This document shows, piece after piece, positions 49,772 to 64,000 of a stretch of DNA of 64,000 nt. Each line of letters starts with the position of its first letter. Positions within the stretch are counted from its first letter, which is position 1. Source of the stretch: Thermotoga petrophila RKU-1. GTDB lineage: Bacteria; Thermotogota; Thermotogae; Thermotogales; Thermotogaceae. A program made the translations under genes and the position numbers. The notes below the pieces were generated by a model that saw only the letters and a list, made by a program, of their open reading frames with translations, was not told the origin of the DNA and did not search any database. The stretch spans positions 930,001-994,000 of the forward strand of contig NC_009486.1 of assembly GCF_000016785.1 (NCBI RefSeq), written 5' to 3'.

Positions 49772-52216
49772 GTGGGAAGGTCCTTTTTCACGTTTCTTCT
49801 AATTCTAGCTGTGAGTTTGTTTGCTGTTTCCTGGCGCGATGTTGTGCTTTATGAAATCATGATAGACAGATTCAACGATGGGGATCCAACGAACAACGAT
49901 CAAGGTTATGGAGAATACGATCCTTCTGATCCAGCAAAGTATAGCGGAGGAGATTTGAAAGGAATAATTGATAAGCTTGATTATATCAGAGGTCTGGGAG
50001 TAGATGGAATATGGATTACTCCTCCAGTAGCCAACCAGTGGTGGGATCCGTGGGTTAATTACGGTGGATACCATGGATACTGGGCAAGGAATTTTAAGGA
50101 AGTAGACGAACATTTTGGGAATATCGAGACATACAGGAAGCTTTCAGAAGAAATTCACAGAAAAAATATGTTTCTCATCCAAGATATAGTTGTCAACCAT
50201 GTTGGAAACTATTTCAGATTCAAAGCTGGAAAATTCGAAATTAACACAGGAAGTGTTCCAACTTTCGCACCAACTCAATTCCCCTTCAATATGAATGACT
50301 ATAATGATCCGAAACAGAGAGAAATGAATGTCTACCACTGGACTCCTGATATCACTAATTACAACGACATTCATCAAAAGCTCAACTATCAGCTTTCAGG
50401 TCTCGATGATTTAAATACTGAAAATCCGATGGTCAGAAGCGCTTTGAAAGACTCCTATGGTTTCTGGATAAAAGAGGTTGGTGTTGACGGCTTCAGAGTG
50501 GATACTGCGATGTACGTTCCAAAAGATTTCTGGGATGATTTCTTCTTTGGCAAAGACGGAATAATGACCTTGAAAGATGATTTCATCGCTTTTGGTGAAG
50601 CATGGCTCACTTCTCCACCGATGGATGACAGTGCAGAAAAGGAAATAGAGAGTTATTTTGACCATGGTTTTAACGCCATGCTTGACTTTCCGCTTTGTGA
50701 AGAAATACGTCGAGTTCTAAAAGGTGGGAAACCAACTTCATGGCTTGCTTACAGAATAGAAAGGCGTAATCAAACGCTTGAAAAAGGACTTCTGGTCACT
50801 TTCATTGACAATCATGATATGGAGCGATTCAGCAGGGGAACGGACGAGAAGACATTGAGAATGGCAGTCGCTTTTCTAATGACTTTACCTGGAATTCCTG
50901 TTATTTACTATGGAACAGAACAGTCTTTTGAAGAAACACGGGCTTCGATGTTTGCAAAGGGATGGGGATCGGGCGGTAAGGATCATTTTGAGAAAGGGGA
51001 GATGTACGATTTCATAAAAAGTGCCGTTGAGTTCAGAAAGAGTCACACTGCAACGAGATACGGTAAGGTCAAAGTTCTTCTGTCGAATTCAGAAGGTGCA
51101 GGGCTTCTGGTTTATGAAGTAAAAGATGAGAATGAAACGCTCATTGTGGTTTTAAACACATCTAATAATGACAAGATTAGAACCATCGATGGTGTGTTTC
51201 CTAGTATGGAAAAGGTATTCTCAAGTGATAGAGAGGCTAGGGTTGTTGTTCAGGAAAAGTCCACGGTCTTTATCGTTCCTCCAAAGAGTCTTACCGTCTT
51301 CAAGCTTTCCTCTGTGAATAAATATGAGAAACAGACAACGAATTTGACGTTAAAAACCACCGTGAACATCTACGAAGATAGAGTAGTAATATCCGGTGAA
51401 ACGAACGGCAAAAGAATGTACGCCTACATTGATGGTTTATATCAAACCATTCCCGAGAAAGTGAATATTGTCGATGGTAAATACAGTCTTTCCCTGGATC
51501 TTTATAAAATGGGTCCTGGAAACCATTTCATTATTTTGAAGGTTTACGGATCCAATCCCAAAGAAGTCCTTTATTCTGAAGAAATCTGGTTTGAGGTGTC
51601 TATACCTACCGAAAAACTCGCAGAAGTGACAGATCCTATGAATGATGATCATGGGCCTTTCGGCAGATATAAATATCCACTTGATTTAACTTTCAAGCGG
51701 CAAATGGACCTTATTGGTGCAAAGGTGGAACGCATGGGACCTAATTTGATTGTCTGGATAAAAACGAGAGAAATTACTACGAGCTGGAACCCACCGCTTG
51801 GATTCGATCATGTGAGTTTTCAAATATTCCTTGATGATCCGAGAAGAAAGGGAGCAGAAGCGTTGCCATTTCAAAATTACGCCATAGATGATTGGGACTA
51901 TGAAATCTTTATAACAGGATGGAATGTGGCTATTTTTTCGTCGGAAGGAGCTACCGAGAAAAAATTCGGTGTGCAGATAGGATCTCCTGAAGTCGTTGTG
52001 GTTGATGGGTGGATAAAGATAGCTGTAAAGGGTGAATGGATTGATTTTCCAGAAAGCTTCAATGGCTGGAAATTGTACCTTACAACTTGGGATTACGATG
52101 GTGTGGAAAACAGGTTCAGGCCTCTTGAAGAGGAACCAAAAGCTTACAGGTTTGGAGGAGGAAACAACACAGAACCGTACATAATGGATGATTTATGGAT
52201 CGAAATAAAGGAATAA
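49772..52216 (+). CDS. Secreted alpha-amylase-family enzyme (GH13) with glucodextranase-type C-terminal domain
   Basis: An 814-aa exported GH13 enzyme. Signal peptide about 1-20 (GRSFFTFLLILAVSLFAVS). The barrel spans about 20-440 with nucleophile Asp244 (DGFRVDTAM), acid/base Glu276 (FGEAWL) and Asp349 (FIDNHDM). After linker beta-domains, residues about 610-814 form a DOMON-like glucodextranase C-terminal module, recognised by TDPMNDDHGPFGRYKYP. I use the GTG at 49772 (ribosome binding site GAGGTGA). Codons are more A/T-rich than in neighbours, suggesting transfer. treE begins 35 bp later, so enzyme and trehalose transporter are probably one operon. Product specificity (maltose, trehalose or other) is open. 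Confidence 0.87.
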   Translation: MGRSFFTFLLILAVSLFAVSWRDVVLYEIMIDRFNDGDPTNNDQGYGEYDPSDPAKYSGGDLKGIIDKLDYIRGLGVDGIWITPPVANQWWDPWVNYGGYHGYWARNFKEVDEHFGNIETYRKLSEEIHRKNMFLIQDIVVNHVGNYFRFKAGKFEINTGSVPTFAPTQFPFNMNDYNDPKQREMNVYHWTPDITNYNDIHQKLNYQLSGLDDLNTENPMVRSALKDSYGFWIKEVGVDGFRVDTAMYVPKDFWDDFFFGKDGIMTLKDDFIAFGEAWLTSPPMDDSAEKEIESYFDHGFNAMLDFPLCEEIRRVLKGGKPTSWLAYRIERRNQTLEKGLLVTFIDNHDMERFSRGTDEKTLRMAVAFLMTLPGIPVIYYGTEQSFEETRASMFAKGWGSGGKDHFEKGEMYDFIKSAVEFRKSHTATRYGKVKVLLSNSEGAGLLVYEVKDENETLIVVLNTSNNDKIRTIDGVFPSMEKVFSSDREARVVVQEKSTVFIVPPKSLTVFKLSSVNKYEKQTTNLTLKTTVNIYEDRVVISGETNGKRMYAYIDGLYQTIPEKVNIVDGKYSLSLDLYKMGPGNHFIILKVYGSNPKEVLYSEEIWFEVSIPTEKLAEVTDPMNDDHGPFGRYKYPLDLTFKRQMDLIGAKVERMGPNLIVWIKTREITTSWNPPLGFDHVSFQIFLDDPRRKGAEALPFQNYAIDDWDYEIFITGWNVAIFSSEGATEKKFGVQIGSPEVVVVDGWIKIAVKGEWIDFPESFNGWKLYLTTWDYDGVENRFRPLEEEPKAYRFGGGNNTEPYIMDDLWIEIKE

Positions 52217-52251
52217 TAAAACCATATTTTGAATGGGGAGGTGCTTTTGCC

Positions 52252-53487
52252 ATGAAGAAGTACTTTGTTCTGTTGCTAGCAGTTCTTCTGGTTGGTGGAC
52301 TCTTCGCTGTGAAAATCACTATGACATCTGGAGGGGTCGGAAAGGAACTCGAGGTACTGAAAAAGCAGCTGGAGATGTTCCACCAGCAGTACCCAGATAT
52401 CGAAGTGGAAATCATTCCGATGCCGGACAGTTCAACTGAAAGGCACGATCTCTACGTCACGTACTTTGCCGCCGGAGAGACGGATCCAGACGTTCTCATG
52501 CTCGATGTGATATGGCCTGCTGAGTTTGCTCCGTTCCTTGAAGATCTGACAGCAGACAAAGACTACTTCGAACTCGGTGAATTCCTACCCGGAACTGTGA
52601 TGTCTGTCACGGTCAATGGAAGAATCGTTGCTGTTCCCTGGTTCACAGATGCAGGTCTCCTTTACTACAGAAAAGACCTCCTCGAGAAATACGGTTACGA
52701 TCACGCTCCGAGAACCTGGGATGAACTCGTCGAAATGGCAAAGAAGATCTCTCAGGCTGAAGGCATCCACGGATTCGTCTGGCAGGGTGCAAGATACGAA
52801 GGCCTTGTCTGTGATTTCCTTGAATACCTCTGGTCTTTCGGTGGGGATGTGCTCGATGAGAGTGGAAAAGTTGTGATCGATTCTCCAGAAGCTGTTGCGG
52901 CTCTTCAGTTCATGGTCGATCTCATCTACAAGCACAAAGTCACTCCTGAAGGAGTTACCACCTACATGGAAGAAGACGCAAGAAGAATCTTCCAGAACGG
53001 AGAAGCTGTTTTTATGAGGAACTGGCCGTACGCCTGGTCCCTCGTGAACAGCGACGAATCCCCAATCAAAGGAAAGGTTGGAGTTGCTCCTCTTCCAATG
53101 GGTCCTGGTGGAAGAAGAGCTGCCACACTCGGTGGGTGGGTCCTCGGTATAAACAAATTCTCGTCACCTGAAGAAAAGGAAGCCGCAAAGAAGCTCATAA
53201 AGTTCCTCACAAGTTACGACCAGCAGCTCTACAAAGCGATCAACGCCGGACAGAATCCAACGAGAAAAGCCGTTTACAAAGATCCAAAACTCAAAGAAGC
53301 TGCTCCGTTCATGGTTGAACTTCTCGGAGTTTTCATCAACGCTCTTCCAAGACCAAGGGTTGCGAACTACACAGAAGTTTCCGATGTCATTCAGAGGTAC
53401 GTGCACGCTGCTCTGACAAGACAGACAACACCAGAAGACGCAATAAAGAACATTGCAAAAGAGCTCAAATTCCTGCTTGGACAGTAA
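52252..53487 (+). CDS. treE: Trehalose/sucrose-type ABC transporter substrate-binding protein
   Basis: A 411-aa secreted sugar-binding protein, signal peptide about 1-19 (KKYFVLLLAVLLVGGLFA). Cluster I fold with LYVTYFAAGETDPDVLMLD and a WPYAWSLVNS ligand segment. In T. maritima the region next to bglA carries treEFG, whose TreE binds trehalose, sucrose and, weakly, glucose (recalled); gene order here supports the same identity. I start at the ATG at 52252, after GGGGAGGTG. A GC-rich hairpin follows the stop. Confidence 0.85.
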   Translation: MKKYFVLLLAVLLVGGLFAVKITMTSGGVGKELEVLKKQLEMFHQQYPDIEVEIIPMPDSSTERHDLYVTYFAAGETDPDVLMLDVIWPAEFAPFLEDLTADKDYFELGEFLPGTVMSVTVNGRIVAVPWFTDAGLLYYRKDLLEKYGYDHAPRTWDELVEMAKKISQAEGIHGFVWQGARYEGLVCDFLEYLWSFGGDVLDESGKVVIDSPEAVAALQFMVDLIYKHKVTPEGVTTYMEEDARRIFQNGEAVFMRNWPYAWSLVNSDESPIKGKVGVAPLPMGPGGRRAATLGGWVLGINKFSSPEEKEAAKKLIKFLTSYDQQLYKAINAGQNPTRKAVYKDPKLKEAAPFMVELLGVFINALPRPRVANYTEVSDVIQRYVHAALTRQTTPEDAIKNIAKELKFLLGQ

Positions 53488-53489
53488 CA

Positions 53490-53518
53490 GAGGCGAGGGG
53501 CTCTCCCCCGCCTCTTTT
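53490..53518 (+). terminator. Hairpin after treE (attenuator or stabiliser)
   Basis: Near-perfect 11-bp stem, GAGGCGAGGGG against CCCCCGCCTC around CTCT, then TTTTACT. treF follows 27 bp later, so read-through must occur. Confidence 0.75.
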
Positions 53519-53544
53519 ACTCTGTTGAAGGAGGATACAGAAAG

Positions 53545-54426
53545 ATGGAAAAAAGAAGTGGTTGGACAGCGTTCTGGATGATTTTGCCGACAATTCTTGT
53601 CATATCCGTAGTGGCTTTTTTTCCTCTGTTCAAAACCTTCTACGACAGTTTCTACAGTTTCGGTTTGAGGCCCGGTATAGAGAGAAGATTCGTTGGGCTT
53701 CAGAACTATTTCAGACTCTTTGAGGACACCCGCTTCATAATGGCTTTGAAAAACACCGTCTTTTTCACGGTGATTTCGGTTTCTCTGGAGACGGTGCTTG
53801 GTGTTCTCATCGCCATAGTTGTTCATCAGAGATTCGCGTTGAGAGGCGTTGTGAGGGCCGCTATGCTCGTTCCATGGGCAATTCCAACGGCCATTTCTTC
53901 TCAAATGTGGCGATGGATGTTCCACGATCAATTCGGAATAATGTCGAGACTCTGGGAGAAACTCGGAATAATAGAACCGGGAACCCCCATTCTCGGAACA
54001 CCAGGGCTCGCCATGTGGGCGATCATATTCGTCGATGTGTGGAAAACGACTCCGTTCATGGCTCTTTTGATTCTCGCAGGTCTTCAGGTGATACCGGAGG
54101 ATATTTACGAAGCGGCGAGAATCGACGGAGCAAATACAATTCAAAGATTCTTCAGAATCACTCTTCCGTTGATAACGCCAACGATAGGAGTGGCTCTGAT
54201 CTTCAGGACACTCGATGCACTGCGCGTGTTCGATGTTGTCTACATCATGACGAGAGGTGCTGTGAACACAGAAACCCTGGCCGTTTACAACCGACACGTT
54301 CTGATGGATAGGGCTTTCACCGGTGCGTGGTTTGGATACGGTTCCGCCATATCTGTTTTCATATTCGTTCTTATATCGATCTTTGCCATACTTTACATAA
54401 AGTCCTTGAGGCTGAAACTCGATTGA
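53545..54426 (+). CDS. treF: Trehalose ABC transporter permease (MalF-like)
   Basis: A 293-aa permease, six helices, EAA loop EAARIDGANTIQRFFRITLP. Partner of treG and treE. ATG after GAAGGAGG. Confidence 0.86.
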   Translation: MEKRSGWTAFWMILPTILVISVVAFFPLFKTFYDSFYSFGLRPGIERRFVGLQNYFRLFEDTRFIMALKNTVFFTVISVSLETVLGVLIAIVVHQRFALRGVVRAAMLVPWAIPTAISSQMWRWMFHDQFGIMSRLWEKLGIIEPGTPILGTPGLAMWAIIFVDVWKTTPFMALLILAGLQVIPEDIYEAARIDGANTIQRFFRITLPLITPTIGVALIFRTLDALRVFDVVYIMTRGAVNTETLAVYNRHVLMDRAFTGAWFGYGSAISVFIFVLISIFAILYIKSLRLKLD

Positions 54427-54438
54427 GGAGGGAACCCG

Positions 54439-55275
54439 ATGAGCAGATCGATAACGCAGAGAATCCTTCTTTATATAGCTGTTTTACTCATTCTTATATG
54501 GTGCGTTTTTCCCCTTTATTGGGCTTTTATTTCGTCGATAAAGCCTGATCGGGATCTTTTCGAAAAGAATCCCTCTCTTTTCCCAAAAAGAATAACCTTT
54601 GAAAACTACGTGAAGGTCTTCAAGGAAAGACCGTTTCATATAAACATCAAAAACAGCATTATAGTGGCAGGCATAACCACGGTTTTGGCATTAGTTGTAG
54701 GATCGCTTGCTGGATACGCCATCGCAAGGCTCAAGTTCAAGGGAAAGGTCATCGTGATGTCACTGATTCTTGCGGTGAGCATGTTTCCACAGGTTTCTAT
54801 TTTGGGATCTCTATTTTTGATCTTGAGGGGATTGAAGTTGATAAACACCTACACTGGTCTCATCATACCCTACACTGCTATGAATCTGCCTCTCACTGTC
54901 TGGGTGCTCCAGAGTTTCTTCAGGGAACTTCCAAAAGAAGTGGAGGAATCGGCGTTCATCGACGGAGCCTCTAAACTCAGAACTCTCTGGTCTATCGTGC
55001 TTCCCATGTCTGCTCCTGGTCTTGTGGCAACAGGGCTTTTGACGTTCATCGCCGCGTGGAACGAGTTTCTCTTCGCTCTCACGTTCATGCAAAAGCCGAG
55101 CCTGTACACGGTTCCTGTCGCAGTCGCTCTCTTCAAAGGAGCGTCTCAGTACGAGATACCATGGGGTCAGCTCATGGCCGCAGCCGTTATCGTCACACTT
55201 CCACTTGTGATACTCGTTTTGGTTTTCCAGAACAGAATCATAGCTGGCTTGAGTGCAGGAGCGGTGAAGGGTTGA
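54439..55275 (+). CDS. treG: Trehalose ABC transporter permease (MalG-like)
   Basis: A 278-aa permease, six helices, EAA-type loop EESAFIDGASKLRTLWSIVL and C-terminal RIIAGLSAGAVKG. No ATPase gene is present, as is usual for Thermotoga sugar transporters that share one ATPase. Confidence 0.86.
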   Translation: MSRSITQRILLYIAVLLILIWCVFPLYWAFISSIKPDRDLFEKNPSLFPKRITFENYVKVFKERPFHINIKNSIIVAGITTVLALVVGSLAGYAIARLKFKGKVIVMSLILAVSMFPQVSILGSLFLILRGLKLINTYTGLIIPYTAMNLPLTVWVLQSFFRELPKEVEESAFIDGASKLRTLWSIVLPMSAPGLVATGLLTFIAAWNEFLFALTFMQKPSLYTVPVAVALFKGASQYEIPWGQLMAAAVIVTLPLVILVLVFQNRIIAGLSAGAVKG

Positions 55276-55307
55276 TACCGGTAAAGTTTTTGTAACCACA
55301 GTTCGGA

Positions 55308-55337
55308 TATAATCTTTGAAAGCGAAAGTAAACTTTC
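55308..55337 (+). promoter_or_regulatory. Candidate promoter and palindrome before the ROK gene
   Basis: A perfect -10 TATAAT at 55308-55313 without a good -35, followed by GAAAGT-AA-ACTTTC at 55324-55337, a possible autoregulatory site. Confidence 0.42.
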
Positions 55338-55353
55338 TGGGAGGTCTGAAAAG

Positions 55354-56502
55354 TTGCAAAACATGGAAATTTACTCCCTAAAGCAGGCAAAAACTATCAA
55401 CAAATTGAGAGTTCTCAACACGATAAGATTTGAGCCTGGAGTTACTCGAAACATGATATCGGAAAAAACCGGGCTCGATCCCAGCACTGTTACAAAACTC
55501 GTGAACGAGATGAAGAGGAAAAGGATGATCTACGAGAAAGGAATACTCCCATCGAAGTTGGGAAGGCACTCCAAACGACTCTACGTGAACAGAGATTTTT
55601 CAAAGGCGATAGTGGTCGATCTTGGGGTGACGCATTCCATCGTTGGGATATCGTTTTTCGATGGGACAGTTGAAGTGGTCGATGAATTCGACACGCCCGA
55701 CACACCTGAGGAGTGTTTCAGAGTTTTGACGGAAAAGGTTTCCAGGTTCCCCGGTGTTTTTCCATTGATTGTGATAGGGGTTCCAGGATCTGTTGATAAG
55801 ACTCACAAGAAATTGGCATTCGCTCCAAATCTCAACAGATGGAGAGACATAGATGTGGAGAAGTACTTCAAGGTGTTCGAGGTGTATTTGGAGAACGACG
55901 CGAACCTTGCGGCCCTCGCGGAAATGATGAGAAACAAACATTTCGGTGATAGAAAGAACATCGTGTACATACTCGTCAGAGAAGGAATAGGTGGAGGCAT
56001 TATCATCGAAGGAAAACTCTACAAGGGTTCTTTCAACGCGGCTGGAGAGATCGGTCACATGAAAATGTACGACAGAGGACCGTGTTTTTGTGGAAGGGTC
56101 GGATGCTGGGAGGCCAACACTTCCATCTCCCACTGCGTCCGTCAGTATGAAAAGAAAAAACCTCTTCCAGGAAGAACCATGTACGAAAAGTTCGAAACGC
56201 TCTGCAAAATATACGAAGAAGACCCACTGGCTAAAGAGGTACTGGACGAATTCACCGGTATCCTCATAGATGGTATTGTGAATCTTGTGAACATTCTGAG
56301 CCCAGAGATCGTGATTGTTGGCGGAGAAGGAGTATTTCTTCCTGAAGGTGTATTTGAGGTGATTGTATCAGAAACGAGAAGACAGGTTCATCCAATGGAT
56401 AAAGAGGTTTCCGTTGAGAAGGGTAGTCTCTCCAACAAAGAAGTGGTTTTAGAGGGGACTTCGATACTTTCTTCCATGATGATAAGTGAAAGACTAGTGT
56501 AA
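55354..56502 (+). CDS. ROK-family transcriptional regulator
   Basis: A 382-aa regulator: N-terminal winged helix-turn-helix (MISEKTGLDPSTVTKLVNEM, about 30-49) and a C-terminal ROK sugar-kinase-like domain with the zinc motif CFCGRVGCWE. Starts at TTG (55354) behind GGGAGG; an ATG three codons on is possible. In the T. maritima reference strain the equivalent gene was reported truncated by a deletion (recalled); here it is full length. It ends the bglA-amylase-treEFG island and is the natural candidate to control it. Confidence 0.88.
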   Translation: MQNMEIYSLKQAKTINKLRVLNTIRFEPGVTRNMISEKTGLDPSTVTKLVNEMKRKRMIYEKGILPSKLGRHSKRLYVNRDFSKAIVVDLGVTHSIVGISFFDGTVEVVDEFDTPDTPEECFRVLTEKVSRFPGVFPLIVIGVPGSVDKTHKKLAFAPNLNRWRDIDVEKYFKVFEVYLENDANLAALAEMMRNKHFGDRKNIVYILVREGIGGGIIIEGKLYKGSFNAAGEIGHMKMYDRGPCFCGRVGCWEANTSISHCVRQYEKKKPLPGRTMYEKFETLCKIYEEDPLAKEVLDEFTGILIDGIVNLVNILSPEIVIVGGEGVFLPEGVFEVIVSETRRQVHPMDKEVSVEKGSLSNKEVVLEGTSILSSMMISERLV

Positions 56503-56504
56503 AA

Positions 56505-56530
56505 TGAGGGGGATTTCCCCCCTCACTTTT
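56505..56530. terminator. Bidirectional terminator between ROK and WD40 genes
   Basis: Stem TGAGGGGG/CCCCCTCA with a five-base loop. It is flanked by CTTTTCC on the plus side and ATTTTAC on the minus side. The stop of the WD40 gene lies in the stem. Confidence 0.8.
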
Positions 56531-58265
56531 CCAAGAGGATCCTTATCTTTCCATCACCGCATGGAACTACGAGCTGATCGCCCACCTTTATGAAATGTCC
56601 TATCTTTTGATCAGAGGCTTTCAAAGAAGTCTTCAAGGTCAGATCTGGAAAAGCAAAAATTTTGATATTTCCATTCCAGGTTCCAACAAAGAGTTCCTTT
56701 TCATCGATTAATAGAGAGGACACTGGTTCGTTCAGGTAGATCTCGCGGACTTTTGAACCTGTATCCAAGCTCCAGAGAATGACCTTTCCGTCTTCTCCAC
56801 CTGAGACAAGAAAGTCCCCAGCGAATTTCACAGCGTTTACGTTTCCTCTGTGACCTTCCAGCAGAAGTACTCTTTCCCCTGTGTCTGCGGAGAGAACTTC
56901 TACGTAACCTATCTTGTCTTTTGGATCAGAGTAAGAAACTCCGAAGGCGATGAATTTGTTGTTCATATCAATCGTTTGGATCATTTCGTGTTCTGTGTCT
57001 TTTCTCCATATCTCTTCGAAGGTTGGATATCTGAACAGAGCGACACTTCCGTCGTAGAATCCTATTGCCATTCTATCGTTTTGAAGAGCGATGTCCATTG
57101 TGCTCGTCGTGCCAACTTTGATTCTCTTCACGAGCTTTCCATTTTCCAGGTTATAAATCTTGAGTTGATTGCTATCAAGACAGGAAATGATGTTGTTTTC
57201 TACTGTCAAAAGCTTTCTGACCCCTGATAGAGCCTTTATCCTGTGTTCAGCGATCCCCTTCTCAGCGTTCCATATCAGAATTTCTCTATCGTCACTGCCG
57301 CTCACGATGAATTTCCCGTCGCTTGATAAAGCTACTGTGTTCACCGAGAGTTGGTGACCGTAGAGAGAGTACTGAAGCTCCAGATCGGCATTCCACACTT
57401 TGACAGTTTTGTCCATTCCGTAGGTTGCTATGCTACCGTCATCTGAAGAGACGAAAAGAACGAAGTTGTTATGAGCGTCGATTGATTTCACCACTTCGTT
57501 TTTCTGAATGTTCAAAACCACGGCTTTGTAATCGTCGGTTACAAAAATGAGATTGTCATTGTCAAGAAAAGCCACATCATTCACCGTTATGACGTGGTCG
57601 TACTGGAGAACGAGTCTTCCATTCGAAGCGTTCCATACCTTTACGGTGTTTCCTCCACAGGTTGCGATCAACTGTCCATTCTCTGAGAACACGATCTTTT
57701 TGATTCCCTCGGGATGGGCCTTGAGGGGAATGGAAAATGAGGGATTCGAGATGTCGCTGATCAGTGCAAGTCCGTTGGCCAGCCCCATGACATATCTATT
57801 CTCATGGGCGGCGATTTTAACAACCGATGGTCCAAGTCTTTGAGAAGAAATTTCTTTTCCATCTGGGAAAGACCATACTCTCACCGTTCCATCGAAAGAA
57901 GCGCTCAGGATTTTATTGCCCGTCACAGCAACAGAAGAGACACCTTTCACGTGACCTTTGAGAAGATGTGTTTCACCTGTCTCCAGGTTCGTTACACCAA
58001 CTGTTTTGTCGTCTGAAGCGCTCACGATAAAACCGTTCTCAAAAGTCACTTCGTTTACTCTGTTGTCGTGGACTTTGAAGACCTTGTAATAGGATCCACC
58101 TTTGTAAACGATGATTTCACCGTTTCCCGTTCCAAGTAAGAGATAACCATCTTTGATCGTTAAAGATGAAATATCGCTGAATCCCAGCACCTTTTCGAGT
58201 TTGAGCGTTTGAGAGAAAATCAGGATCGATATGAGAACCAAAAACAGTGTCAGTGATTTTTTCAT
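56523..58265 (-). CDS. Secreted WD40 beta-propeller protein
   Basis: A 580-aa exported protein: signal peptide about 1-18 (MKKSLTLFLVLISILIFS), then back-to-back WD40 repeats with many WN/WS endings (VRVWSFPDG, VKVWNASNG, VKVWNADLE, ILIWNAEKG, VILWSLDTG). Enough repeats for about two seven-bladed propellers; no enzymatic domain. ATG after AGGAGGTTGAG. It is last in the minus-strand cluster with pullulanase and two beta-barrels, separated from pulA by a hairpin. A protein-scaffold role for the surface starch complex is plausible inference; extracytoplasmic WD40 proteins in Thermotoga are not characterised as far as I know. Confidence 0.84.
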   Translation of the reverse strand: MKKSLTLFLVLISILIFSQTLKLEKVLGFSDISSLTIKDGYLLLGTGNGEIIVYKGGSYYKVFKVHDNRVNEVTFENGFIVSASDDKTVGVTNLETGETHLLKGHVKGVSSVAVTGNKILSASFDGTVRVWSFPDGKEISSQRLGPSVVKIAAHENRYVMGLANGLALISDISNPSFSIPLKAHPEGIKKIVFSENGQLIATCGGNTVKVWNASNGRLVLQYDHVITVNDVAFLDNDNLIFVTDDYKAVVLNIQKNEVVKSIDAHNNFVLFVSSDDGSIATYGMDKTVKVWNADLELQYSLYGHQLSVNTVALSSDGKFIVSGSDDREILIWNAEKGIAEHRIKALSGVRKLLTVENNIISCLDSNQLKIYNLENGKLVKRIKVGTTSTMDIALQNDRMAIGFYDGSVALFRYPTFEEIWRKDTEHEMIQTIDMNNKFIAFGVSYSDPKDKIGYVEVLSADTGERVLLLEGHRGNVNAVKFAGDFLVSGGEDGKVILWSLDTGSKVREIYLNEPVSSLLIDEKELFVGTWNGNIKIFAFPDLTLKTSLKASDQKIGHFIKVGDQLVVPCGDGKIRILLEK

Positions 58266-58290
58266 TGTCTCAACCTCCTGAAATCAGGTT

Positions 58291-58318
58291 TCAAAGCCCC
58301 AGCACAAAGCTGGGGCTT
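58291..58318 (-). terminator. Hairpin between pulA and the WD40 gene
   Basis: Ten-bp stem AAGCCCCAGC/GCTGGGGCTT with a five-base loop. On the minus strand it is followed by TGAAACC rather than a T-run, so it may only attenuate or protect message ends. Confidence 0.6.
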
Positions 58319-58341
58319 GACTATTGAGATTCTACAACTTT

Positions 58342-60873
58342 TCACTCTCTGTACAAAACGTACGCGGAAAGCGGTTCGAGCTCTATCGTTCCCTCAACGG
58401 TTTCTATCACTTCCGTTCCGGCTTTTTGACCGTTTACAACCACATTCCATTTTCCTTCTGGCAGTTTGTATGTTGTCTTCTCTGGGTTTCCATTGTAGAT
58501 CACTACGATGTCTTTCCATGGGTCACCGCCTGCGTGGTCTTTGAGCATGAACGCAACTACTCTTCTTCCACCCGGGAGAAATTCCAGATGTTTCTTGATC
58601 TCTTCAGCGTTTTTCAGCCTGAAAGCAGGGTGTTCTTTTCTGAGTTTTATGAGACCCTTGTGGTAGTTGAACACGTCTATGAATTGAAGTTTTCTTTCGT
58701 AGTCGAAGCCGTTTATCGAGATGGGGGAGTTGTAAGAGTTGTCGTTGAAATTCTTCGTTCTGCAGAAGTCTTGGCCTCCGTGTAGGAAAGGAACGCCTTG
58801 AGAAGTGAGGAGTATTGCACCAGCCAGTTTCTGAGCATTTTTCAGTTCTTCTTCGGACCATTCTTTTTTCTTATCGGCTTGGGCGGCAAGATAGTTCTTG
58901 TCCCACAATGTGTGGTTGTCGTGGCATGCTGCGTAGTTTATCGTTTCCTCTGGATCGAGAGCAAAGCTCTTGATGAGTTTTCCATCATAATCAATGCTTC
59001 CTACGACTCCTCTTTTAATCCAGGTCTCTTTTCCATAACCTCCCATGACGAATCCTTTGACACTCGGATTGAACACAGAACCTCTTATTGCGTCTCTGAA
59101 CTCGTCGTTGAAAGCTGCCACGTGTGTTCCAGCAACATCGCTCTTCCCAAATCTGATGGGTGCACCCCATCCACCCCACGGTTCGCCGTAGAGAATGATC
59201 GTTGGATTGATTTTATGAAGGGCCTTTTCAACTTCAAGCATTGTTTTCTTATCGATGAGGCCCATCTGATCGAATCTGAAACCGTCTATGTGATACTCCT
59301 TCACCCAGTAGGTGACAGTATCAACTATGAATTTTCTCATCATAGGCCTTTCACTTGCGATGACGTTTCCACATCCACTCTCGTTCAAATAGGCACCAGT
59401 TTTGTCGATTCTGTAGAAGTAGTATGGTACCGTCTGATCGAACGCAGAGAGTTCACCTACGCCGTAGGTGTGCGGGAACACCATGTCCATGATCACACCT
59501 ATACCGTGTTTGTGAAGTGCTTTGACCATTTCTTTGACTTCTCTAATTCTCGTGTGTGGATTTTTGGGATCGGTTGAGTATCTGCCTTCTGGAACCATGA
59601 ACAGGTAAGGGTCATAACCCCAGTTGTAGTACTTTTCAAAATCTTTGTCGAGTTCATCGCCCGTGTAGAAGTCGAAGAAAGGAAGTATGTGGACGTGTGT
59701 GACACCGAGCTCCACAAGGTGCGAAAGGCCAGTTGTCACACCACCCGGTCCTTTCGTGTTCTCTTCGGTGAGACCGAGGTAGAGGCCTTTGTTTTTGACT
59801 CCGGAGTTTTCGAGTCCTGTGATGTCCGCTATGTGTATTTCGTAGATTATCGCGTCTTCGTATCCTTCGATTTTCGGTCCCCTGTCGTTTTCCCATCCTT
59901 CTGGGTTTGTCCTGGCAAGATTCACAACGGCGCTCTTTTTGCTGTTTGCGTAAACCGCTTTCGAATAAGGATCGACGGTTGTTCTGACCTTTCCGTAATT
60001 TTCCAGCTGATAGAGGTAGAACACTCCGTCGAGATCACCTTCGACAACCGCTTCCCAGACACCGTTTCCTTTATATTCCATGTTCACAACCTGATACGGT
60101 TCTGTGTCTTCTCCGTTCTTGAAGAGAAGCACCTTTACCCACTTAGAAACGGGGGACCAGACTCTGAATATCGTCTTCTCTGGAGAATATACGGCTCCGA
60201 GCTCTCCATCGTAATAGTAGTCGTCCAGGATCTCCATCATGATGACTCTTGCCGGTTTGTAACCTTCTATGATCAGTTCCACGTCTTTTCTGAGGTCTTC
60301 TTCTTTCAGGGATTCAGAAAGGACGATTCTCACGTAGTTCGTCACGTCTATGTCCGTGGGATCGGCCTTTTCCACTCTTGAGACGGGAATCTCTTTTCCG
60401 TCAACAGTAACCTTGAAGAGTTCTTTCTTTTTCGTATCCACAGGATTGGTCAGAAAAGCCTCGATCACCTTGTTCGACCTTGCCTGTGCGAAGAAGATTC
60501 TGGGAGATGTGTCTGGTTTTTCGTAGAAAATCTCTTCCACTCCCTGGAGTATCCACACTTCAGCCTTTCCGTCTTTTATCTCTATGAACCTGTCTTTTGC
60601 CACGTCTTTTGCCTGCCACTCGTTCAGCCTCACTATGATCCCCACCTTTGTAAGATCCATTGGTAATTTCACTACTGCTACTTTACCAAAATCATCCTCA
60701 CCTGTGAACTGATAAGCTTTCCCTTCCTGAGACACGGGCTCCACGGGCCATATCCAGAGATTCCATCCATCGTATTTTCCATCGTATCTGTGATAGTGGA
60801 CTACGATGGTGGTTTCTGAGAATATCAAAGCGGAAAGGAGGAGAACAAGTAACAACCAGAGTTTAGTCTTCAC
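58342..60873 (-). CDS. pulA: Type I pullulanase
   Basis: An 843-aa exported debranching enzyme, same length as T. maritima PulA. Signal peptide about 1-19; CBM41 starch-binding domain ([20 protein letters not shown]); an all-beta middle with CBM48; then the GH13 barrel with the type I signature [10 protein letters not shown], nucleophile in GFRFDQMG, acid/base in YGEPWGGW and CHDNHTLWD. It cleaves alpha-1,6 branches of pullulan and starch at the cell surface. It follows the CBM48-barrel gene by 17 bp, clearly one operon. Confidence 0.96.
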
Positions 60874-60890
60874 CTTGAATCACCTCACAA

Positions 60891-62915
60891 TCAGAAGTTG
60901 ACTTCACCTTGGAAATCCAGATAGATGTTCTTGTATGCGTCGTAAGTTACTCCAAGTTTTGCGCTTGCGAATTCGTTTCTGAGCTCCCCAAAGACGGTTA
61001 TTTTGTCGGGGTCGTTTTCAAAGTTGTCGTAGTCTCCGTATCTGTAGGCCAATCCGAGGACATAGGTGTCATCGAAAACGTACCCTGCGCTTACCGTATA
61101 CGTTTTGTTGTTGAAATTGTAATCCCCGTAGAGTTCCAGGTTGAAGAGATCAATGCTTGCTTTGAGAAATCCTTTGTCTTCTGAAGATGTTTTTTCATAG
61201 TACAGGTAGTTGACATCGAAGTTGTCCGAATCGACTTCGAGGTTCACAAAGTAGAGAACGGGCTTGGCAAAGATTAAACCGGTCCAGACGGTTGTTTTTG
61301 CTCCAAGAAGATCAAAGGATAAGAAACCTGCGAGGTCTATTTTTTCTATCCCAAGCAAGTAATTACTTCCAAAGTAGGTACCGAAATTCTCTCCCGAAAC
61401 TCCTATCAAAAATCTTTCCTTTTCCGCGTTTGTGTCAAAAGCGACATCAGCTGTGAACTTGTAGGAAAGGAAAGAAATACCGAGACCAAAGCCTGTTTCG
61501 GCGAACCATTCTTCGTAGGGCTTCCCTTCCACCAGAGATGCCACTTTGTAGTGTCCGAAAACCTCGAAACCGTCCTTTTCCACCTTTATGTTCGCGCTGT
61601 CCAAGAAAGAGCCTTCCGGTTTGAAATTCAAGGTTGCTTTCAAGAAGTCGGTTTTTACACCGAGAGTGAGTTCATGGGAGCTTTCGAGAGATTTGAGGAA
61701 GGTATCCGTTGCGTATTTGTAAGTCAGATCAATGAAGTATTTCCCGAAGAACGGAGTCTCACTCTCAGATTTCTGTTCCAGTGGTTTTATGACGAGTTTT
61801 CCATCCTCTTCAGAGAGCATGAAAGCGCCGTTTTTTCCACCGAATCCATCCGGGACATAGGAAGGCGCGTTGGGATCTTCTTGCCAGACCTGATTTCCCG
61901 CTATCGTGAAGACGTACTTGTACTGATAAGTGCCAGGGTTGAGCTTGATTCTTGCCACCCAGAGGTTCCCTTCTCTTTCCATTGGATTCGCTGTAGTGCT
62001 CCAGTTGTTGAAGCTTCCCGCAACGTAAGCCTCGGAAGCTTCTGGCTTTCTAACAACGAAGACGACAAAACTGTCTTCCACGCTGAGTCCTTCTTTCAGC
62101 TCGGATTTTTCAACCTCTTCTGGTCCGGCTTCTGCGGTTTCTTGATGAGCGACTTCGGGTGCTTCTTCTGAAGTCTCTTCTTGGACAGTTTCCTCGATGG
62201 GAGATTTTACCTTCAGTTCTCCGTTTTCTTCGTAAACTTCGAAAACGCCGTTCTTTCCTCCAAAGCCGTCATCGACAAAGGCAAAGGCGTTGGGGTCAGT
62301 CACCCATTCCTCACCGTTCACAACGAACTTGTATTCATACACTCCAGGACCAAGTTCAAGTACTCCTTCCCACCAACCATCTTCGAGTGGATACATCTCT
62401 ATCTCTTCTGCGTTCCAGTTGTTGAAATTTCCAGCTATGGTTACGAATTCCGCTTCGGGATTGTAGTATCTGAGAACCACTATACCGTCTTCGACAAAGA
62501 TGGTGTCTTCCCTGTCGGGATTGGGCTCGTATTTCTTTGATTCTTCTTTCTTCTGAGGACCAACGATGAAAAGCTCTCCGTCTTTTTCCACCAGTGTGAA
62601 TATTCCGTTGTAGCCTCCGAAACCATCGTCCACGTATCCGGGTGCGTTGGGATCTTCTTTCCACGTAGTTCCATCTATCACGTATTTGTATTGATACGTT
62701 CCGGGTTCGAGTTCGAGCTCTGCTCTCCAGAGACCGGGTTCCACTTCTTTCATTGGAAGCGCAGTGGGATTCCAATTGTTGAAAGTTCCTGCGAGATACA
62801 CCACCTTGGCTCCTTCCCACTCGAAGGTGAAAATCACTTTTCCGTTTTCTACAAAGACATCAGAAAATACGAAGACACTCAGCAAAAGCACAGAGAGAAT
62901 GAGAAGTTTTTTCAT
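60891..62915 (-). CDS. Outer-envelope beta-barrel protein with three CBM48/AMPK-type glycogen-binding domains
   Basis: A 674-aa exported protein: signal peptide about 1-18. Three tandem glycogen-binding E-set domains at about 20-115, 135-240 and 285-385, each with the starch-contact motif (GTFNNWNPTALPM, GNFNNWNAEEIEM, GSFNNWSTTANPM) and a shared end DPNAxxxVxDGFGGxNG. An acidic Glu/Thr linker (about 245-280) separates domains 2 and 3. The last 280 residues alternate aromatic/polar strands (FIDLTYKYATDTF, YDAYKNIYLDFQGEVNF) and end in Phe, as beta-barrels of the toga or outer membrane do. Inference: a starch-binding porin delivering alpha-glucan to pullulanase, encoded just downstream. The architecture is unusual. 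Confidence 0.85.
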   Translation of the reverse strand: MKKLLILSVLLLSVFVFSDVFVENGKVIFTFEWEGAKVVYLAGTFNNWNPTALPMKEVEPGLWRAELELEPGTYQYKYVIDGTTWKEDPNAPGYVDDGFGGYNGIFTLVEKDGELFIVGPQKKEESKKYEPNPDREDTIFVEDGIVVLRYYNPEAEFVTIAGNFNNWNAEEIEMYPLEDGWWEGVLELGPGVYEYKFVVNGEEWVTDPNAFAFVDDGFGGKNGVFEVYEENGELKVKSPIEETVQEETSEEAPEVAHQETAEAGPEEVEKSELKEGLSVEDSFVVFVVRKPEASEAYVAGSFNNWSTTANPMEREGNLWVARIKLNPGTYQYKYVFTIAGNQVWQEDPNAPSYVPDGFGGKNGAFMLSEEDGKLVIKPLEQKSESETPFFGKYFIDLTYKYATDTFLKSLESSHELTLGVKTDFLKATLNFKPEGSFLDSANIKVEKDGFEVFGHYKVASLVEGKPYEEWFAETGFGLGISFLSYKFTADVAFDTNAEKERFLIGVSGENFGTYFGSNYLLGIEKIDLAGFLSFDLLGAKTTVWTGLIFAKPVLYFVNLEVDSDNFDVNYLYYEKTSSEDKGFLKASIDLFNLELYGDYNFNNKTYTVSAGYVFDDTYVLGLAYRYGDYDNFENDPDKITVFGELRNEFASAKLGVTYDAYKNIYLDFQGEVNF

Positions 62916-62930
62916 ACCTTAGACACCTCC

Positions 62931-64000
62931 TTACCACCACGTCGAATATTCAAGAGAGATTTTCTTGACAAAGTTTATCTGGCTGGAGAAATCGCCATCG
63001 CCAAGAGAGAGTTTGAACTCGGACTTTTCATCCGTGAACTTCAGCTCGTAGTAGGCTGTGTAAGCCTTTGTGTAGAGAGTATTCAGATACTGCCACTTGG
63101 CGAAAAAGTTGACACTGCCGAAGTTTTTCCACAGTTCCGCGTAGAATACCTCACCCATCGCGCTTGTGGAATCGTGGGCTGGTTTGCCGAACTTGTAAGA
63201 GATCTTTCCATTGAAACCGATGAAGCTGAAGTTCCTACCAACTTCCATTCCGAAGTCATCCCAGTTGAGAATGTCAGAATCGAATTTTGTTCCTTCCTTC
63301 CAGACCTTGAACCAGACATCGCCGGAAGAGTACTCGACACCGTATTTGGGAGTTTTCGATGTGAACTTGTAATCAAAAAAGAGCTTGAAGTTGCCGAATG
63401 TCGTCCAGAGGTTCGCGAGTATCTCACCTTCGAGATCGTTGTCGTTCACGTAGTCACAGTAGTCAAGGTGTGTTTCTGAACCTACTCCGGTGAGTTTCAC
63501 TCCGTGTTTCCAGTCTGCGGTTGAAATACCAAACATGTAGAAGAAATTGTTTGATCCTATCTTTTCCTCGTTCTCATAGCTCACGCCGAATTCTCCAAAA
63601 TACCTAAGGTCTGGTTCCCAGTTGAAATCGAAGTACATGTCGTTCACTGTGGAGCGTTTCCCGAGCATCGCGCTGAAGTAGAAATTCGAAAGATTTCCTC
63701 GGTACTGGAGATAAGAAACATCTCCTGTGGTCACACCTCTGAAACCGAAAAGCTCAATTTCAAGTCCATTTCTAGAGTCGTTGAAGCTGTAGATTCCAAG
63801 CCAGTCACCTGTAGATCCAAAGACTCTATTGTAGTAGGCTTTGAGATCCACCAGGTCTGTATCGAGGGCGATGTATCCGGAGTCGAGTTTCAAATCTTTG
63901 GTTGTGAAATCGCCGGAAAGACTGTTCCCCGAGAGGTACAGCTCAGTGTAGCTGGATCCGCTCTGGTTTTCCAGATCGTAGGAGTAACCCACCTTGAGAG
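62931..64000 (-). CDS. Beta-barrel envelope protein (partial, N-terminus beyond window)
   Basis: At least 356 codons, open to the right edge; the in-frame GTG at 63992 is probably internal because the strand pattern continues before it. The sequence is a regular run of amphipathic strands (YTELYLSGNSL, VDLKAYYNRVFGS, FNFYFSAML-like, FFAKWQYLNTLY) and ends KKISLEYSTWW-stop with aromatic residues, as a membrane beta-barrel should. 15 bp upstream of the CBM48-barrel gene, so in the same operon. A porin or structural toga protein; the substrate is inferred only from the neighbours. Confidence 0.8.
   Translation of the reverse strand, partial: LKVGYSYDLENQSGSSYTELYLSGNSLSGDFTTKDLKLDSGYIALDTDLVDLKAYYNRVFGSTGDWLGIYSFNDSRNGLEIELFGFRGVTTGDVSYLQYRGNLSNFYFSAMLGKRSTVNDMYFDFNWEPDLRYFGEFGVSYENEEKIGSNNFFYMFGISTADWKHGVKLTGVGSETHLDYCDYVNDNDLEGEILANLWTTFGNFKLFFDYKFTSKTPKYGVEYSSGDVWFKVWKEGTKFDSDILNWDDFGMEVGRNFSFIGFNGKISYKFGKPAHDSTSAMGEVFYAELWKNFGSVNFFAKWQYLNTLYTKAYTAYYELKFTDEKSEFKLSLGDGDFSSQINFVKKISLEYSTWW

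Follow-up and report, generated by a model that had tools for sequence, protein, structure and literature searches.

A probable TonB-independent, two-compartment operon for alpha-glucan uptake at the outer envelope of Thermotoga

The Bacteroides Sus combines a surface amylase lipoprotein (SusG), starch-binding lipoproteins (SusE/F), an outer-membrane barrel and a debranching enzyme, encoded together, and the Thermotoga locus described here encodes a comparable set with AmyA in the SusG-like role and the lipoproteins p220 and lip370 as candidates for the SusE/F-like role. It differs from Sus in having no SusD, TonB-dependent barrel or ExbD, in the fusion of binding domains to a barrel, and in an ABC importer as the next step at the inner membrane. 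The enterobacterial LamB/MalE/MalFGK system is alike in that a TonB-independent barrel would feed maltodextrins to MalE, and in Klebsiella PulA belongs to the same regulon as the maltoporin system. In contrast to that system, the Thermotoga barrels, bar387 and that of a second protein, CBMbar, matched no Pfam family, tandem CBM48 domains are carried on a barrel, and a surface amylase and binding lipoproteins are present. Sas20 of Ruminococcus bromii, an amylosome protein that binds starch at the cell surface (PMC9112005), has in common with p220 the starch-binding role proposed for the latter, which weakly resembles X25/CBM53-type starch modules, but belongs to a Gram-positive amylosome with neither outer membrane nor barrel.

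The locus itself is the Thermotoga mal2 region that Noll and colleagues described (TM1834-TM1845), with malEFG2, amyA and pulA; the genes lying between amyA and pulA, which encode the barrels and lipoproteins, were left without an assigned function there (PMC2246101). The T. maritima orthologue of AmyA is reported to be anchored in the toga with its catalytic domain facing outwards (PMC4529897, PMC3387000). The locus, its enzymes and its ABC genes have been described before; the core of barrels and lipoproteins appears to be undescribed. No description of this core was found in the literature searched, which took in few subscription papers, and neither Pfam nor NCBIfam has a family dedicated to it. 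The initial annotation had presented the system as undescribed, which holds for the core but not for the mal2/amyA-pulA locus (PMC2246101) or the AmyA of the toga (PMC3387000, PMC4529897). The operon is proposed, with a probability of roughly 0.6, to serve TonB-independent uptake of alpha-glucan at the outer envelope of Thermotoga and to work in two compartments; we infer the substrate, transport through the barrels, the side occupied by the CBMs, their role as a sink and the cooperation of the parts.

Operon structure and conserved gene core

The window analysed, a stretch of 64,000 nucleotides (G000:C1:930001-994000) within the 1.82-Mb genome, ends inside the operon, and for this reason the operon boundary was misdrawn in the initial annotation. 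The four co-directional genes it had listed are all present on the (-) strand. The final gene of the operon (56523..58265) encodes an exported WD40-repeat protein of 580 aa and is preceded by the gene for PulA (58342..60873). Upstream of these lie the gene for CBMbar (60891..62915), a 674-aa protein consisting of a signal peptide, three CBM48/AMPK domains and a predicted C-terminal beta-barrel ending in phenylalanine, and that for bar387, a predicted outer-membrane beta-barrel protein of 387 aa with a signal peptide and the C-terminus ...EYSTWW. The latter gene occupies 62931..64000 and continues to the equivalent of 64094, so that the complete gene (G000:C1:992931-994094) runs 94 bases past the window end.

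Three lipoprotein genes follow upstream on the same strand, encoding the two-domain protein p220 (G000:C1:994084-994746), lip370 (G000:C1:994989-996101) and the amylase AmyA (G000:C1:996114-997814), while malE, malF, malG and a GH13 gene are divergent from amyA and begin at 998034. Intergenic gaps within the operon are short (12, -11, 15, 17 and 76 bp), apart from 242 bp after the frameshifted lip370. Upstream of amyA is a promoter-like TTGACA-17-TAATAT site directed into the gene, with a divergent one directed into malE; both are consensus matches only. Read from sequence, AmyA, lip370 and p220 carry lipoboxes, and both barrels, PulA, the WD40 protein and MalE have plain signal peptides, in agreement with the signal peptides noted in the initial annotation. 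In the lip370 region (G000:C1:994747-996101), the frameshift lies near the 3' end of the gene and leaves 370 aa, compared with 443-463 in relatives, with the remainder open in another frame; the gene is also split in one further genome (G092), which agrees with the entry 'TM1841 (split?)' in Table 1 of the mal2 paper (PMC2246101). Convergent to the operon, at 52195-56502 of the window, are genes judged from their sequences to encode a ROK-type regulator and a sugar ABC transporter, the latter made up of two permeases and a putative binding protein.

Conservation was surveyed in 103 Thermotogota genomes, in which a carrier was defined by a strong bar387 match. The genes for p220, bar387 and CBMbar were adjacent, in this order and on one strand, in all 33 carriers, with p220 directly upstream of bar387 and CBMbar directly downstream. 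The carriers belong to three families (Thermotoga, Fervidobacterium/Thermosipho and Marinitoga/Petrotoga-type), and named relatives among them include Thermosipho, Fervidobacterium and Marinitoga. In many carriers, though not in all, the core has AmyA-type amylases and lip370 relatives as neighbours; the linkage of the amylases is patchy, and they are found beside the core in several genera other than Thermotoga. The conserved unit is p220-bar387-CBMbar, usually with lip370 and often with AmyA upstream. In one Marinitoga genome alone (G041; L061:5365-6740), bar387 is split into two ORFs.

PulA contains PUD (CBM41), CBM48, GH13 and pullulanase C-domains (Pfam), and its assignment as a type I pullulanase therefore stands. 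The gene occurs in 90 of the 103 genomes, but its distance from the core is 2.1 kb or less in just six, all of them Thermotoga. The same six are the only genomes with the WD40 gene. Co-conservation of the four genes first grouped together thus holds for the pair of barrels (33/33), and PulA and the WD40 protein were rejected on these grounds as core parts of a four-gene machine. Many WD40 repeats were detected in the 580-aa protein by Pfam, and from its length two propellers are plausible. Identity with BamB was rejected, the NCBIfam match being far under the cut-off, and the scaffold role first ascribed to the protein found no support.

The two barrels, the CBM48 domains and the lipoproteins

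The AlphaFold model of bar387 is an all-beta barrel of outer-membrane type with 24 strands (pLDDT 90.8), consistent with the barrel first recognized from its partial gene. The C-terminal part of CBMbar (residues 389-674, 60894..61751), likewise annotated as a membrane barrel at the outset, was modelled over residues 389-673 as a barrel of 20 strands; the pTM of 0.43 for the entire multi-domain chain, together with modest TM-scores to known barrels, leaves its strand count, closure and pore size uncertain. Both proteins combine a signal peptide with an even number of antiparallel strands and an aromatic C-terminus. Foldseek matched bar387 to ushers, OccK porins and maltoporin, and CBMbar to general porins, chitoporin and the CBM48 of branching enzyme, which given the modest TM-scores indicates likeness of kind rather than of family. 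The two barrels are distantly related to each other (hhalign E 1e-7), and chance resemblance was rejected since reversed and shuffled controls were no better than 1.5e-3. Kinship to OmpB (TM0476) was also rejected (E 0.24 and 0.55). A single Omp85/BamA is encoded in the genome, so ordinary insertion of the barrels is expected. Neither protein is among the six porin candidates of T. maritima named by Petrus et al. (PMC3387000). OmpB, the major toga porin, could already carry small maltodextrins.

The three starch-binding domains ascribed to the 674-aa protein were recovered as AMPK1_CBM/CBM_48 stretches with Pfam matches above cut-off (2.5e-35, 6.8e-32). Domain 1 (residues 19-122, 62550..62861) carries W48, K77, W85 and N103 and matches the AMPK beta-1 GBD 1z0n (E 3e-10); domain 2 (residues 135-243, 62187..62513) carries W167, K196, W204 and N222; and domain 3 (residues 271-382, 61770..62105) carries W305, K333, W344 and N362, all on the (-) strand. 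The equivalent W, K, W and N contact sugar in the 1Z0M/1Z0N complex of the AMPK beta-1 glycogen-binding domain. This AMPK-type quartet is invariant in all three domains across 21 full-length homologues (252/252 cells), and binding of alpha-glucan is the probable function. In Marinitoga/Petrotoga-type forms one complete CBM48 domain is kept. The barrel half of CBMbar is less conserved than the CBM48 half. In relatives, the tandem CBM48 module is also found at the head of GH57 amylases that have Glucodextran_C, and it was seen in GH57 amylases and Glucodextran_C (SLH-like) proteins at L055:7439-11020, L066:4581-6608 and L067:5751-7748, in genomes of Fervidobacterium/Thermosipho type.

Among the upstream lipoproteins, p220 can be aligned to CBM48 over its second domain (E 3e-13), and matches of single members to the AMPK1_CBM, CBM53 and X25 models have E values of 1e-4 to 6e-4. 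A comparison with SusE/F gave no significant match (structure 4fe9, E 0.39). A scan with a single narrow p220 pattern gave matches in Thermotogota alone. Elsewhere, a 2,092-aa lipoprotein of another Thermotogota family (L090:3943-10221) combines FN3 repeats, three p220-like units and a pullulanase, and a 2,913-aa ORF (L089:3364-12105) with LRR repeats and SBP_bac_5 has a p220-like stretch (E 1e-74). For lip370, sequence searches gave no PDB match and only a sub-threshold CBM_20 match in Pfam; from our own reading of its motif it may be DOMON/CBM9-like.

Sidedness of the CBM48 domains and routes of uptake

Outer-membrane barrels usually have short turns inside and long loops outside. In the CBMbar model the loops after odd strands have 4-17 residues and the turns after even strands 2-3 (U=90 of 90, p=1e-4), and bar387 follows the same trend (p=0.016). 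Since the long loops all face one way and the tight turns the other, the barrel rule places both ends of CBMbar, and with them the three CBM48 domains, in the periplasm, a prediction drawn from one model. If the domains are periplasmic they do not capture starch at the surface, and this role falls to AmyA, lip370 and p220. Under the proposed arrangement, AmyA would cut starch or glycogen outside the cell while lip370 and p220 hold the polymer, and bar387 and the CBMbar barrel would admit long, branched maltodextrins across the toga by diffusion. On the inside, the array of three CBM48 domains suspended from CBMbar would bind arriving chains as a periplasmic sink, and PulA would debranch them in the periplasm before import by the divergently encoded MalE/MalFG. 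That the domains form a new class of importer, in which periplasmic CBMs on a barrel trap long maltodextrins and ratchet them through the pore without TonB, is put forward only tentatively and is on balance doubtful.

The initial annotation had the CBM48 domains of CBMbar facing outwards, in a complex with PulA and the WD40 protein that binds and debranches starch at the surface. Arrays of CBMs are common on surface proteins, AmyA sits on the toga exterior (PMC4529897), and p220-like units occur on pullulanase lipoproteins of another family, all of which would suit such a complex. However, an even number of strands with the N-terminus at the tight-turn side places the CBMs in the periplasm by the usual rule, only ~10 residues connect CBM3 with strand 1, too few to thread the barrel, and PulA has no lipobox and is unlinked outside Thermotoga. 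Surface capture by CBMbar is therefore considered unlikely.

Less probable still is that CBMbar acts mainly as an anchor, its barrel tethering the toga to periplasmic or exported glucan while bar387 or OmpB transports. The lower conservation of the barrel half of CBMbar would suit this, as would the looseness of Thermotoga togas, which require anchors (OmpA1/A2, PMC3387000). On the other hand, the operon is shared with an amylase and maltodextrin ABC genes lie beside it, the pairing of CBMbar with bar387 and p220 is strict in 33 genomes, and the one-CBM versions of Marinitoga/Petrotoga type would anchor poorly. The least probable reading, a loose starch regulon in which secreted enzymes and general porins act independently and share regulation without cooperating, would account for the genus-level linkage of PulA and the WD40 protein and the patchy linkage of AmyA, but the core is invariant in three families and its two barrels are related, which argues for a functional unit and against mere co-regulation.

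Relation to Sus and significance

SusD (PF07980) was found in none of the 103 Thermotogota genomes, with a positive Bacteroides control, and the TonB-receptor barrel (PF00593) in one, which is no carrier. ExbD, searched for in the same genomes, was absent from every carrier; only some Thermotogota families have it, and the Thermotoga, Fervidobacterium/Thermosipho and Petrotoga-type families lack it. With no TonB-dependent barrel or ExbD in carriers and no SusD, diffusion through the barrels remains as the route of entry for the proposed uptake operon. The initial suggestion of an outer-envelope alpha-glucan system without homology to SusC or SusD is in keeping with these absences and with the two barrels. 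The operon seems to work like Sus although the features that define Sus, SusC and SusD, are missing from it, and the Thermotoga core resembles a counterpart of the Bacteroides system that evolved independently and without its motor parts.

Functions are known for few of the outer-membrane proteins of Thermotogota, and detailed knowledge of how polysaccharides above the porin limit are taken up comes mainly from TonB-driven systems. If the proposed reading is true, a conserved TonB-free set with binding domains fused to a pore would suggest that the strategy of Sus arose on two occasions by different routes. The locus supplies defined genes with which to ask how hyperthermophiles feed across the toga.
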